A stretch of 64,000 nt of DNA from Malachius bipustulatus (Eukaryota; Arthropoda; Insecta; Coleoptera; Melyridae), in assembly GCA_910589415.1 (NCBI GenBank), contig OU342630.1:25143867-25207866 (forward strand), in the 5' to 3' direction. Below are positions 5,892 to 62,009 of this stretch, piece after piece (the stretch's first letter is position 1; each line of letters begins with the position of its first letter). Under the pieces are notes generated by a model. The model saw only the letters and a program-made list of their open reading frames with translations. It did not search any database and had not been told where the DNA came from. The translations under genes were made by a program, and so were the position numbers.

Positions 5892-6470
5892 CAGGGTGGG
5901 CCATCGAAAAGGAAACAAGCCTAATAATTTGGAAAGTGAAGATGTATGCGAAAAACGCCGAAACAGGTGGGATTTTATTATCGAGGGGGTACATATTTTC
6001 GTGACAAATTTAACTACCCAAGCTCACCCCCTTGGCAAGGATAGCTACCCCTTTGCTTATCATCATAGGGAACAGCTATCGAGTGATACATCATTTGAAA
6101 GCTACTTGAATTCTCTTTACAAGGATATTCAACATTTTGGGTTTCGATTACAAACAGGGTAGCCTACATTCAAGTGATTAAGGCGAGTTACGTTTTCGTT
6201 GGGCCACCCTGTATGTGAGCGAAACCCAAAATGTTGGATATCGTTGTAAAGAGAATTCAAGTAGCTTTCAAATGATGTATCACTCGATAGCTGTTCCTTA
6301 TGATGATAAACAAAGGGGTAGCTACCCCTGCCAAGGGGGTGAACTTGGGTAGTTAAATTTGTCACGAAAATATGTCCCCCTCGATAACAAAATCGACCTG
6401 TATGCGTTTTTCGCATACATCTTCACTTTCCAAACTATTAGGCTTGTTACCTTTTCAATGGCCCACCCTG
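5892..6470. mobile_element. CAGGGTGGGCC foldback element, 579 bp
   Basis: Begins CAGGGTGGGCCATCG and ends with the complementary ...GGCCCACCCTG, with TA on both sides (5890-5891, 6471-6472). The first 320 bp (5892-6211) is a complete unit with its own inverted ends. After a TA, 6214-6470 is a partial inverted copy of that unit, giving arms of roughly 250 bp. No coding capacity: the apparent reading frames on the two arms are mirror images. TA flanks fit Tc1/mariner-type mobilisation. Confidence 0.85.
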
Positions 6471-16163: not shown

Positions 16164-17021
16164 CAGGGTGAGGCGCGAGAACCTTAGGGCATTTTTATAT
16201 GGAGAAGTCCTGGGAGTAGAAGTCTAAAAATTTGTACGGGTATGATTTCGGTTTTGCCGAGCTGAACTAAAATATTCACAACCCCTCACCATTTCCGGTT
16301 ATACCGGAAGTTGCCATCAACTTTCATATTTTAAATGGTACACCCTGTATATTATTATATTTTCAGATTGTCTGAAAAAATGCAATAAAAATGGGGTTTA
16401 CAGTTCAAAATTGTACCGAGTGGTTTATGAGTTATAAACAAATGAAAATCGCAATTTTCCGTTTTAAAAGCAGCTTAGGTCGAAAACGGGTCAAGATATC
16501 GGAAAACGGCTTACATGTCCCTATCTTAACTTTTCACCTAGTATCCTATGGTGCTGATGAAATTTGTATACAAAGTGATGAAAAATCAGCGATTTAAAAA
16601 AAAATTAATAAAAAATATTTATTTTTTGTAGGTACTCTAGCGTAGTATACAAAAAGTTAGGATAGGGACATGTAAGCCGTTTTCCGATATCTTGACCCGT
16701 TTTCAAGCTAAGCTGCTTTGAAAATGGAAAATTGCAATTTTCATTTGTTTATAACTCATTAATTGGCCGTTACAAATTTGAACTGTAAACATCATTTTTA
16801 TTACTTTTTTTCAGGCAATCTGAAAATGTAATAATATACAGGGTGTACCATTTAAAAAAAGAAAAATATAGCAACTTCTGGTATAACCGGAAGTGGTGTG
16901 GAGTTGTGAATATTTTAGTTCAGCTCGTCAAAACCGAAATTATACACGCACAAATTTTTAGACTTCTACTCCCAGGACTTCTCCATATAAAAATGCCCTA
17001 AGGTTCTCGCGCCTCACCCTG
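16164..17021. mobile_element. CAGGGTGAGGCGCG foldback element, 858 bp
   Basis: Starts CAGGGTGAGGCGCGAG and ends with its complement CTCGCGCCTCACCCTG, flanked by TA on both sides. The whole element folds on itself with arms of ~420 bp. Each arm contains a 183-bp unit (16164-16346 and its mirror) that itself begins CAGGGTG and ends CACCCTG. The centre holds the shared module with GTTATAAACAAATGAAAATC and TTACATGTCCCTATCTTAAC. No real coding sequence. It separates element C ORF1 from its 5' UTR. Confidence 0.9.
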
Positions 17022-19663: not shown

Positions 19664-20395
19664 CTAAATTAGATGTTCAAACAAATTTCCGTTTTCTATC
19701 AAACAATAACTTAATCTGTTATAAAAATGAATATTATCCAACATAAGAAGTGTTATATTAAAACATGCTTCAACAATACTGTCCTCTACTGATTGCAAAT
19801 TTGGGTGACGTCTTTGGGAATAAATTTTATTCTTTAAATATCCCCATAAAAAGAAATCATTCGGAGCTGAGTCAGGAGACCGTGGCGGCCATATGATAGA
19901 TCCTTTCCTTCCTATCCATGAACCTCCAAATGTCGCATCTAGGAAATTCCTAATAACATTTACATCATAATGTCCTGGAGCTCCATCATGTTGATATGAT
20001 ACGGTTTCAATGTCCTCGGACAACTCAGCTAAAGCAAGGCAAATCTTAGTGACTAGCAAGTTCATGTAATCATCTTCCGTCAACTGTCCATCGATGAAAA
20101 AAGGTCCAACAACTGCATTGCGGAAAATACCAGCCCAAACGTTGACACTCTGACGGTGCTGAGTATGAGTTTCAACGAATACAATGCGGATTCTCGGTGC
20201 TCCAGTGACGATAATTCTGTACGCTCGGTGCACCATGAAGTGTGAATGTTGCTTCATCGCTGAACCAAATTGAGCTTAAGAAGTTTTGTCATCTTGGTTA
20301 CATCTCTCCAACATTATTTCACAAAATCTTATCCTATTTTCAGCATCTTTCTTAAACAAAGCTTTCCCGAATATAGTTCATAGAGCAAACTCATA
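19664..20395 (-). pseudogene. Mariner/Tc1-type transposase relic, catalytic domain
   Basis: The minus strand gives, in order, [24 protein letters not shown] (first catalytic Asp), SVNVWAGIF, VSYQHDGAPGHYD (second Asp), IIWPPRSPDSAPNDFFLWG (third Asp), then a C-terminal tail. Spacing between the second and third Asp is 42 residues, one more than the DD41D copy at 24607. The last 197 codons are open, but the first catalytic block lies in another frame, with a stop and a frameshift around 20240-20270. The N-terminal DNA-binding domain is missing. It is a dead copy of a DDE/D transposase that moved by cut-and-paste at TA sites. Confidence 0.8.
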
Positions 20396-24275: not shown

Positions 24276-25853
24276 CAGGGTGTTCTACAAGCTCTATGAC
24301 AAACTTTGACAGATTGTAGGTTGCTTGATTTTAAACATATTTTTTTTAATAAACATGGGTCCGATTCGTTTTTGTTTAGAAGTTACAAGCATTTAAAGAA
24401 TCGTAATTTTTTCAGTCAACCAGGAAGTGACACTAAGTCGCTATGTCACTAAGACACTATGTCAACCAATGTACACTTATAAAATATACACTTACTTCAA
24501 TGAAAAACTGCTGATAAATAGAAATATCGGTTGTTATGACAATAATAATTGTTAGTGTCATTTTAGTTATTTATTAGATATTATGTGTGAAAGTTATAAA
24601 TAAAAAATGCATTTATTCTCGACTGAGGAATATGCAGATATTGTGTTTGTATATGGGTATTCCAATGGTAACGCCAGACAAGCTGCTCAAGAATACCGAC
24701 GCAGGTATCCAAATAGACATCAACCTGCCCACACGGTGTTTAGTGCATCATTTCGTAGACTTCGAGAAGCAGGTAATCCCGCTCCAAAGAAGGCTATTCG
24801 CCCTACTGAAGTAAATGTACAAGATGAAGAAAATGTGATAGATGCTGTCCTCGATAACCCTTCAATCAGTGTTCGGCGTATTTCTAGTAACCTTCATGTA
24901 TCACCGAATTTTGAATGGCGTGTATTGAACAGAGAAATGTTACACCCGTTTCATCGCCAAAATGTACAGGCATTGCATGCTGGAGATGCCCCACAGCGAT
25001 TAGGATTTTGTCGCTGGTTACTTCAGCAACAAGCACAAAATGATAGATTCATTTCGCTTGTCATGTGGTCTGATGAAGCGTGCTTTACTAGGGATGGCAT
25101 AAATAATAATCATAATGAACATGTATGGGCGTTGCAAAATCCACTTGCAATTAGACCAAGACGATTTCAGCAATGATTCAGTGTCAACGTTTGGGGTGGC
25201 ATTTTCAACAATAATTTATTACCTGTGCATGTTCTAAATGATCGTTTAAATGCAGATCTTTATAGACATTTCTTAGAACACGACCTTTTAGAGTTTATTG
25301 ATGACGTGCAACTCAATATTATTCAAAATATGTGGTATCAGCATGACGGTGCACCACCACATAGAGGAAGACAAGTTGCTGCTTGGCTAAATGAACATTT
25401 CCCGAATAAATGGATAGGTCAAGGCGGTCCAATATCATGGCCACCTCGTTCTCCCGATCTGAATCCTCCGGATTTTTATTTATGGGGACACATGAAGCAG
25501 CTGGTCTACCATGTTGAAATCGCTACCCATCAGCAGTTACTTGAAAGAACTCAAGATGCAGCTAACCAAATAAGAAATGATCCAAATCTCATTCTTCGAG
25601 TCCGAATCTTTAGTTCGTCGATGTGAGGCTTGCATTCAAGCTGAGGGTGGACATTTCGAACAATTTTTATAGTCTTAAGTTTTGTGATTATCATTTAATT
25701 TGAATTTTTATTGTTGATTGTTAATAAAGTTTAAATGCTTGTAACTTCTAAACAAAAACGAATCGGACCCATGTTTATTAAAAAAAAAAAATGTTTAAAA
25801 TCAAGCAACCTACCATCTGTCAAAGTTTGTCATAGAGCTTGTAGAACACCCTG
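24276..25853 (+). mobile_element. DD41D mariner/Tc1-type transposon, 1578 bp, with 122-bp inverted ends
   Basis: The left inverted end spans 24276-24397 and the right 25730-25853. They start CAGGGTGTTCTACAAGCTCT and stay nearly identical for ~122 bp, with TA on both outer sides (24274-24275, 25854-25855). The single gene inside is a transposase of the DD41D group (rosa/VISITOR type). End similarity this high suggests recent activity, although the transposase carries one stop and one frameshift. Confidence 0.92.
24607..25672 (+). pseudogene. DD41D transposase, one nonsense and one frameshift
   Basis: From the ATG at 24607 the frame has an N-terminal helix-turn-helix (STEEYADIVFVYGYSNGNAR, then RRRYPNRHQ) and a second HTH (ISVRRISSNLHVS). 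The catalytic triad is D156 (WSDEACF), D247 (YQHDGAPPH) and D289 (PDLNPPDFYLWG), with 41 residues between the last two: DD41D. A TGA stops the frame at codon 190 (25174-25176), where relatives have Arg, so a CGA-to-TGA change is likely. The frame continues unbroken after it. Near 25598 a frameshift moves the conserved tail (SLVRRCEACIQ...GHFEQFL) one frame over, ending TAG at 25670-25672. Otherwise full length (~355 residues). It would cut and paste elements at TA. Confidence 0.92.
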
Positions 25854-60154: not shown

Positions 60155-60701
60155 CAAGGTGTCCAGGTATAAGTGTAAGAGCTACACGTGGCGACCTTCC
60201 TTGGACTATTTTGAGTAAAAAATCTTAATACAATAATGCTCTAAACCTCTTCACGGTGCCACAGGAGGTCATCAAAGTTAGAAATTCTGGGTCACAAATA
60301 TGCATATTATTGAACTTCTATTTCCTTTTGCAGTTACGGTTAACATTTTCAAAGACTTTTGCAAAGTATTTTTCATTTAATTTTCGTAACAGTGCAATTA
60401 TCAACTTTTTTTAAATTTCTAAAAAAAAAAATTAGGAAATGTTAAAAAAGTTAATAATTGCACTGTTACGAAAATTAAATAAAATAAGACTTTGCAAAAG
60501 TGTTTAAAAATGTTAACCGTAACTGCAAAAGGAAATAGAAGTTCAATAATATGCATATTTGAGACCCAGAATTTCTAACTTTGATGACCTCGTGTGGCAC
60601 CGTGAAGAGGTTTAGAGCATTATTGTATTAAGATTTTTTACTCAAAATAGTCCAAGGAAGGTCGCCACGTGTAGCTCTTACACTCATACCTGGACACCCT
60701 G
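60155..60701. mobile_element. CA(A/G)GGTGTCCAGGTAT foldback, 547 bp
   Basis: Begins CAAGGTGTCCAGGTATAAGT and ends with the mirror ACTCATACCTGGACACCCTG, TA on both sides. Arms of ~250 bp are almost identical, around a short A/T-rich hinge at ~60415-60435. No genes. Confidence 0.92.
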
Positions 60702-60705
60702 TATA

Positions 60706-61907
60706 CAGGGTGTCCCATAATATGTGGGCAATCTCCCGGATTTAGGTAAATTTCGCAAAAATAAATGAAAAAATAGTTATAAAATTAATTCCTCAGAGAC
60801 ACCCCTACAAAGATATTAGCTGTTGAAGTTGAGGGTTGAAAATCAATTTTTTGCAATAACTTTTTTTATTTCTTGGCCGATTTTGATAATTTTTGGTTTT
60901 ATTTTGTATTATTTTAGACTGTTTAGAATAGTGTTTCATAATCTTTGGTAGCACATACATAGACCTCGGGATGGCATAACCCCCTCATTCACTTGAAAGA
61001 AAACAATAAAAATAATAATTTTACAGTTTTTTAAGGTTAATTTTCTTTTTATTTGATATTTTTTACATAAAAAATGTATCTTTATTTATTTCGATAGAGC
61101 GAACCGTTATCGAGATAAACGTCCTTCTAATAGGTGATGCGTCGCAGGAACTTTCTAAATTTCAAGTAAATTTCAACAAAATGGCTGACCTTTGACAGTA
61201 AATTGAACAGGAAACAAAACAAAACCCTAATTAAATACACGTCAAATAGTGTCAAAGATTTCATTTCATGCAGATTCAATTCTAACTGATTTTAAAATGA
61301 GCTACACAAACGCTGAATATGCAGAAAATCAGTTAGAATTGAATCTGCATGAAATGAAATCTTTGACACTGACGTGTATTTAATTAAGTTATTGTTTTGT
61401 TTCCTGCTCAATTTACTGTCAAAGGTCGGCCATCTTGTTGAAATTTACTTGAAATTTAGAAAGTTCCTGCTACGCATCACCTATTAGAAGGACGTTTATC
61501 TCGATAACGGTTCGCTCTATCGAAATAAATAAAGATACATTTTTTATGTAAAAAATATCAAATAAAAAGAAAATTAACCTTAAAAAACTGTAAAATTATT
61601 ATTTTTATTCTTTTCTTTCAAGTGAATGAGGGGGTTATGCCATCCCGAGGTCTATGTATGTGCTACCAAAGATTATGAAACACTATTCTAAACAGTCCAA
61701 AATAATACAAAATAAAACCAAAAATTATCAAAATCGGTCAAGAAATAAAAAAGTTATGGCAAAAAATTGATTTTCTACCCTCAACTTCAACAGCTAATAT
61801 CTTTGTAGGGGTGTCTCTGAGGAATTAATTTTATAGCTATTTTTTCATTTATTTTTACGAAATTTACCCAAATCCGGGAGATTGCCCACATATTATGGGA
61901 CACCCTG
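60706..61907. mobile_element. CAGGGTGTCCCATAATATGT foldback, 1202 bp, transposase start at hinge
   Basis: A near-perfect palindrome: left arm 60706-61296, right arm ~61332-61907, flanked by TA. The ~35-bp hinge contains ATGAGCTACACAAACGCTGA..., i.e. M-S-Y-T-N-A-E-Y-A-E, which looks like the start of a mariner-type transposase (compare ...STEEYAD in the 24607 gene). The arms therefore appear to be the inverted end plus 5' leader of such an element, doubled head to head. It directly abuts the previous foldback with only TATA between. Confidence 0.93.
61297..61331 (+). pseudogene. First ten codons of a mariner-type transposase, at a palindrome hinge
   Basis: ATG at 61297 reads M-S-Y-T-N-A-E-Y-A-E before the sequence turns into the complement of the left arm. 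The E-Y-A motif opens the N-terminal helix-turn-helix of the DD41D-type transposase found at 24607 (E-E-Y-A-D). The match is short, but its position, immediately after a long leader at the exact centre of the palindrome, makes chance unlikely. Confidence 0.6.
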
Positions 61908-62009
61908 TATACGAGTATACTTAATAATTGTAACAAATGCTTCCCACAAAATTTTCTTCACATAAATACAGAATACAGGTCCAGTTTTTACAGAAGATGC
62001 TTCTATTTA

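Follow-up and report, generated by a model that had tools for sequence, protein, structure and literature searches.

What is the origin of a 1.2-kb palindrome whose two arms meet at what reads as the start of a transposase gene? The palindrome lies at 60706-61907 of the window, the 64,000-nt stretch of DNA analyzed here (C1:25143867-25207866 in the 544-Mb, 52-contig assembly that was searched). Its parts, named by comparison with gene-carrying relatives in the same genome (the parental elements L031, L100 and L101), are as follows:

60706..61907, + strand (oriented by the hinge): palindromic, gene-less foldback transposon, 1202 nt (locus L002, among the 37 complete copies aligned)
60706..61293, + strand: 5' arm, 588 nt, consisting of ~516 nt of TIR and then most of the parental transposase 5'UTR
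61222..61293, + strand: 5'UTR portion of the 5' arm, past the parental TIR; present twice in the foldback and once in the parent when the foldback arms are aligned with the parental 5' and 3' ends
61294..61324, + strand: hinge, the transposase gene start, 31 nt, AAAATGAGCTACACAAACGCTGAATATGCAG, with two C/T differences from L031 and L100
61297..61323, + strand: codons 1-9 (MSYTNAEYA) of the lost transposase gene, with the ATG at 61297-61299
61325..61907, - strand: 3' arm, 583 nt, in which the 5' end (TIR and 5'UTR) is repeated in inverted form
60702..60705, no strand: left flank TATA, of which TA is read as the target duplication
61908..61911, no strand: right flank TATA, read from the sequence

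Aligned to each other, the two arms have 568 identical positions, with 15 mismatches and 5 gap positions; shuffling the element 20 times gave no more than 341 identities. Exact CAGGGTGTCCCA occurs within the window only at the two ends of the palindrome. A TA-flanked palindrome of 1.2 kb had been described at this position in a first-pass annotation, and is confirmed by the arm alignment and by the TATA on both sides. The same annotation took the hinge to be the only non-palindromic bases. This is correct for the consensus of the 37 copies, whose arms of 587 and 583 nt show zero mismatches over 583 aligned positions and one 4-nt indel, but not for the window copy, in which the arms differ at 20 positions. 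Similarly, nine of the ten codons read there as MSYTNAEYAE lie inside the hinge, but the last (E) extends into the arm. Reading frames that open at the hinge ATG meet a stop inside the arm, leaving the foldback without a transposase gene. By script, TATA flanks 29 of the 37 copies on both sides and TA flanks 34; of the three copies that could not be parsed, two have TA likewise by eye and one is truncated. The left TATA of the window copy doubles as the right flank of a neighboring palindrome at 60155-60701. Four of the 37 copies (L002, L009, L014 and L026) have the 5' flank ACACCCTGTATA, directly adjoining another CACCCTG end. A scan of viral contigs with the 20-nt foldback end gave no matches.

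The foldback is present throughout the assembly in high copy number. The start pattern ATGAGCTACACAAACGC was found at 914 places with up to 2 mismatches (52 for the reversed-pattern control), and the first 100 places listed, a non-random sample, were read: 28 at L001-L028, 21 at L029-L048 (two at L044) and 51 at L049-L099. The foldback junction is present at 91 of these and the parental arrangement at two (L031 and L059). The script rule classed the remaining seven as other (L052, L058, L060, L063, L073, L080 and L084); by eye, some of these, L058 and L084 among them, look like damaged foldbacks. Direct searches place the junction with its 31-nt hinge at 843 sites (up to 3 mismatches allowed) and the parental reading at 15 (at most 2 allowed), with zero control matches in either case; by these counts the gene-less form exceeds the gene-carrying one about 50-fold. 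Ten extra matches to the parental reading at 3 mismatches are all foldbacks on reading. For the alignment, 48 loci were fetched with their flanks and the 37 with both complete arms were kept, the 11 omitted being truncated, rearranged, double or parental. Mean identity is 97.8% to the consensus and 96.0% between copies.

Two 22-nt forms of the hinge, GCTGAAAATC and GCAGAAAATC, were found at 89 places (up to 2 mismatches; control 0). The short-hinge copies form no single clade in a weakly supported tree. The 22-nt forms could be 9-nt deletions from the 31-nt hinge, and the GCTG form may represent a second independent origin. Repeated formation has left no clear sign within the family: those 91 of 100 places have the junction in common, and a single hinge predominates among them.

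If the hinge is the remnant of a gene, a full-length element with the same ends and a MSYTNAEYA-type start should exist in this genome, as the first-pass annotation predicted, and its leader should open a long DDE frame. Three such loci were read. In L031, L100 and L101 the leader is followed by ATGAGTTACACAAACGCTGAATACGCAG and the gene, and it runs into ATGAGTTACACAAACGCTGAATACGCAGATATG... and a DDE transposase frame. L100 (C1:31560800-31563400) is a complete element of 2258 bp at 127-2384, with CAGGGTGTCCCATAACATGTGGG at both ends; this end differs by one base from that of the window copy. Its TIRs (127-642 and 1870-2384, ~516 nt) are 98.5% identical, and its gene starts at 717. The element is bounded by TATA before CAGGG and by TATT after CCCTG, in agreement with a TA target duplication as judged from its own flanks. 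Given these flanks, TA is the safest reading, ahead of a TATA duplication or ends of the form TACAGGG. L100 is the full reading of L059. Over 1980 nt, L031 and L100 are 99.5% identical, and the L031 gene is open; L101 is more worn and carries an insert. None of the three parental loci read (of 15) is an intact autonomous copy, L100 having a 1-nt frameshift in its gene, L031 lacking the outer 5' TIR and L101 containing stops. On the parental 3' side, ~20 nt separate the stop from the TIR and bear no resemblance to the 5'UTR, which in L100 and L101 is found only at the 5' side.

The parental gene contains a predicted 60-nt GT...AG intron, placed by the reading frame and by relatives of equal length. 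The spliced L031 product has 357 aa and matches DUF4817 over the cut-off (E 7e-12); HTH_Tnp_Tc3_2 and DDE_3 also match, below their curated cut-offs. In a large database, 2407 of 4102 candidate proteins match it at E 0.001. The closest relatives among the matches listed are three partial proteins, 72-89% identical, and full-length relatives, equal in length, are mostly 48-54% identical. D158, D249 and D291 are near-invariant in a 17-row alignment, with a spacing of 41 residues between D249 and D291. With a profile built from this alignment, the best solved relative is Mos1 (3hos; E 2e-16), and the D motifs are aligned. We take these residues to have the catalytic role that they have in Mos1. 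Judged by its sequence, the parental transposase is a member of the DD41D group (rosa/LTIR/VS) of the Tc1/mariner superfamily, and the first-pass label 'mariner-type' was right at the superfamily level. According to the parts of PMC5490172 consulted, the DD41D rosa/LTIR elements of aphids include LTIR elements with TIRs above 460 bp; the parent shares with these the DD41D triad and, in L100, a TIR (~516 nt) of more than that length. DD41D/VS elements are also known in bees, according to the portion of PMC8472432 seen. Transposases of this kind form a large load in the genome: 150 DUF4817 domains were matched in the 150 candidates scored, out of 2620. The window contains, at 19664-20275 (-), a fragment of another DDE transposase with ~46% identity to the L031 protein over 123 aa.

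Alignment of the arms to the first ~600 bp of the parent, as the first-pass annotation proposed, defines the structure of the foldback. Consensus positions 1-619 correspond to L100 127-745 (96.8% identity), spanning the TIR, the 5'UTR and the gene start, and positions 619-1201 correspond to L100 713-127 reversed (96.1%). The foldback consists of the TIR, the 5'UTR and the first 28 nt of the gene, followed directly by the inverted TIR and 5'UTR; both of its ends are 5' ends. Two inverted copies of a transposon end plus leader had been suggested earlier. The doubled 5' end is indeed found, but most of each arm is already TIR in the parent, and it is the ~70 nt of 5'UTR that shows the doubling.

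The large share of parental TIR (~516 nt) in each arm is what one would expect of an ordinary MITE, formed by internal deletion between the long TIRs of the parent and inheriting its palindromy from them, and internal deletion is the origin stated for the MITEs of the related aphid elements in the text of PMC5490172 available to us. A MITE of this type is collinear with its parent; the foldback, with the 5'UTR inverted in its 3' arm, is not. Since both arms run ~70 nt beyond the TIR into 5'UTR that the parents have at their 5' end only, deletion alone is insufficient and the 5' end must have been doubled in inverted orientation. We therefore reject plain internal deletion, which appears very improbable. 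The ten codons would by themselves be weak evidence, and they could be a chance reading in a palindrome unrelated to the transposase gene, were it not that the same start behind the same leader opens the gene in L031, L100 and L101 and that the parental reading recurs at its 15 places. The three genes rule out this explanation, whose probability is negligible. The foldback lacks a transposase gene, is present in high copy number and has ends common to L100 and L101, as is characteristic of a MITE or non-autonomous foldback. Its origin from a long-TIR DD41D parent is almost certain, and it is very likely a non-autonomous derivative of such a Tc1/mariner transposon, formed by doubling its 5' end in inverted orientation. 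The parental loci read are 3-4% off the foldback consensus and are without two foldback 5'UTR states (GTGTC and CTAACTG), indicating that the founder came from a sister lineage and that these loci are sisters rather than the direct ancestor.

Because its ends and its TA target are the same as those of the parent, the foldback would probably be moved in trans by the parental transposase.

A second derivative of comparable structure is related to another element in the window:

24276..25853, + strand: sister full-length DD41D-type element, 1578 nt, with a TIR of ~124 nt, CAGGGTGT ends, TA flanks and a normal gene layout
24607..25626, + strand: sister transposase gene, ATG at 24607, matching DUF4817 (PF16087) over the cut-off and DDE_3 (PF13358) at E 1e-5, below the cut-off

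The sister gene has one in-frame TGA, at 25174-25176. At L018 (5394-6001) and L102 (C7) we find a TATA-flanked 713-bp derivative of this element. Its left end is the inverted right end of the sister element, reaching 38 nt past the TIR, and is joined to internal position 1024 via TGAT, a 4-nt microhomology. The derivative is the mirror case of the foldback, at the 3' end of the sister element.

By what route could one end of a transposon be duplicated in inverted form? Faulty repair of an excision gap has, in our estimate, about an even chance of being the answer. Excision would leave a gap, and each broken end could enter either long TIR of a sister copy. One broken end would copy the 5' end inwards; the other, bearing the same TIR reversed, would enter at the 5' TIR rather than at the 3' TIR, so that it copied the 5' end as well. 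Synthesis would stop past the 5'UTR and gene start, and the two new strands would be joined with an overlap of 1 nt, giving a palindrome whose hinge is asymmetric: one side includes 28 nt of the gene, and the other ends 3 nt before the ATG. After the duplication, the arms would have exchanged sequence. The 1-nt overlap is compatible with routes other than gap repair as well, and the mirror case in the sister element supports the faulty-repair class of event. Abortive gap repair is reportedly treated by Rubin and Levy in 1997. It is an event class proposed to underlie defective transposon copies, there for deletions (cited in PMC4678618 and PMC4877112, each seen in part); for an inverted end duplication we infer that entry into the wrong TIR is needed in addition.

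An identical anatomy is expected if two full-length copies had come to lie tail to tail with their 5' ends outward, and a deletion had removed both gene bodies and left the remainder mobile as one unit. Elements do cluster, the window copy adjoining another CAGGGTG element and the ACACCCTGTATA flank recurring as described; the 0.5% difference between L031 and L100 makes near-identical pairs possible, and the mirror case at L018 could arise likewise. The route nevertheless demands that two nearly identical copies be suitably oriented and that the deletion stop at near-mirrored points, 28 nt into one gene and 3 nt before the ATG of the other, and we consider it a less probable route. Palindromes with a short loop can also form in another way. 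Fold-back priming usually yields a perfect palindrome with a short loop, and the hinge region is A+T-rich near TTTTAAAA, as would suit a break near the start codon at which the 3' end folded on itself and primed synthesis. Replication of the hairpin would give a palindrome that includes flanking DNA, from which the transposon part would later jump out. At the junction, however, there is only 1 nt to prime on, and palindromic flanks are present in 0 of 37 copies (at best 25 of 40 flank bases, including the shared TATA), although the founder locus may be lost. This route seems rather unlikely.

Later exchange between the arms can be evaluated from variants in the 37 copies. Common variants are mostly near-equal in number in the two arms; position 351, for example, is variant in 16 and 17 copies. 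Those closest to the hinge are tied to one arm (position 556, 9 and 0; position 574, 0 and 13). Co-occurrence of the same variant in both arms of the same copy was counted 66 times for 28 common variants; 2000 shuffles, which ignore the relatedness of the copies, gave 30.6 on average and never more than 49. Because of this, the co-occurrence figure alone could mislead; variants private to one copy, of which 17 are in both its arms and 300 in one arm, are harder to explain without exchange. On these patterns, the foldback arms appear to exchange sequence variants. Sixteen of the 17 private both-arm variants lie at arm positions 237-452, one lies at 543 and none is nearer the outer ends, so that exchange seemingly favors the middle of the arm. 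A 4-nt deletion at ~538 is found by script in the 3' arm of 28 of 37 copies and in the other arm of 2 of 37, indicating that exchange is incomplete.

Sites that separate the two parental TIRs give a mixed answer as to the TIR from which the arms may derive. At 482 both arm consensuses carry the 3'-TIR state, and at 514 the 5'-TIR state. At 199 and 209 they agree with the 5' TIR of L100 only, the 5' TIR of L101 agreeing with the 3' TIRs; at 209, the 3'-type base is present in 24 of 74 arms.

The first-pass annotation extended its mechanism to the many CAGGGTG palindromes in the window. The hinges inspected lend no support to this extension as worded: by eye, the hinges of 5892-6470, 16164-17021 and 60155-60701 contain no start like that of the foldback gene. 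The hinge of 60155-60701 has no ATG, that of 5892-6470 has one ATG with an immediate stop, and the few ATGs in that of 16164-17021 open readings unlike the foldback gene start. No parent for the 60155-60701 family was found among 40 scored of 536 first-look candidates; all 40 are two arms around a short hinge, the second, reversed arm sometimes partial. Doubling at the start codon is shown for the 60706-61907 family only. The other palindromes have structures of their own. That at 60155-60701 has a 16-nt A+T hinge and CAGGGTGTCCAGG ends. The one at 16164-17021 is nested, with outer CAGGGTGAGGCG arms of ~154 nt around an inner palindrome with CAGGGTGTACC ends, and L036:330-1188 is a 93% copy of it. 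The third, at 5892-6470, is nearly complete; both of its arms contain open frames of ~90 aa, and close to the hinge there is an additional CAGGGT/ACCCTG pair.

The Foldback (FB) elements of Drosophila have long inverted arms with little or nothing between them; the foldback described here resembles them in its arms and differs in its Tc1/mariner-like parent. In Galileo, a Drosophila element of the P superfamily, non-TIR sequence, and even gene sequence, has been recruited into both TIRs, and changes are passed between TIRs (parts of PMC4168063). Like the foldback, Galileo has gained sequence in both TIRs, and many of its copies are TIRs plus a spacer; unlike it, Galileo makes a 7-8 bp target duplication and has recruited the gene end, rather than the 5'UTR and start codon (same parts of PMC4168063). 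Among the known systems we found, Mu killer of maize is the closest in structure: in the sections of PMC3440606 consulted, it is a single locus at which the mudrA-side end of MuDR has been duplicated in inverted orientation, and it silences MuDR. In both cases the two ends come from the transposase-gene end, the inverted duplication is internal and the far end is missing. Mu killer, however, is confined to its one locus, extends 1.3 kb into the gene and acts as a silencer of MuDR, whereas the foldback inverts at the start codon, belongs to Tc1/mariner and is present at more than 800 places (compared with the same sections). The MITEs of the aphid LTIR elements are described as internal deletions in PMC5490172, and the parts of that paper and of PMC8472432 consulted describe no palindromic 5'-end derivative. 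In the literature, seen in part, we came across no Tc1/mariner palindrome built from the 5' end and amplified, which does not prove its absence in print. The combination of a Tc1/mariner-type 5'-end palindrome, a gene start as the loop and 843 places versus 15 parental ones looks new.

These results link a family of palindromic, MITE-like elements to a definite event of origin, with gene-carrying relatives in the same genome and a breakpoint resolved to the base. The doubled 5'UTR and the gene-start loop are diagnostic against plain deletion, and the mirror case in the sister family suggests a recurring repair error in long-TIR transposons. Hundreds of long palindromes also provide a natural set for measuring exchange between arms. 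A testable idea is that such palindromes feed small-RNA silencing of the parent. By analogy with Mu killer, a read-through transcript of the foldback might fold into a double strand of ~585 bp matching the parental TIR and 5'UTR and silence the parent, as an amplified counterpart of that locus; we regard this as a long shot. If true, the more the foldback multiplied on the parent's transposase, the more the parent would be silenced, exchange between arms would keep the hairpin near-perfect, and a transposon's parasite would act as a brake on the transposon.
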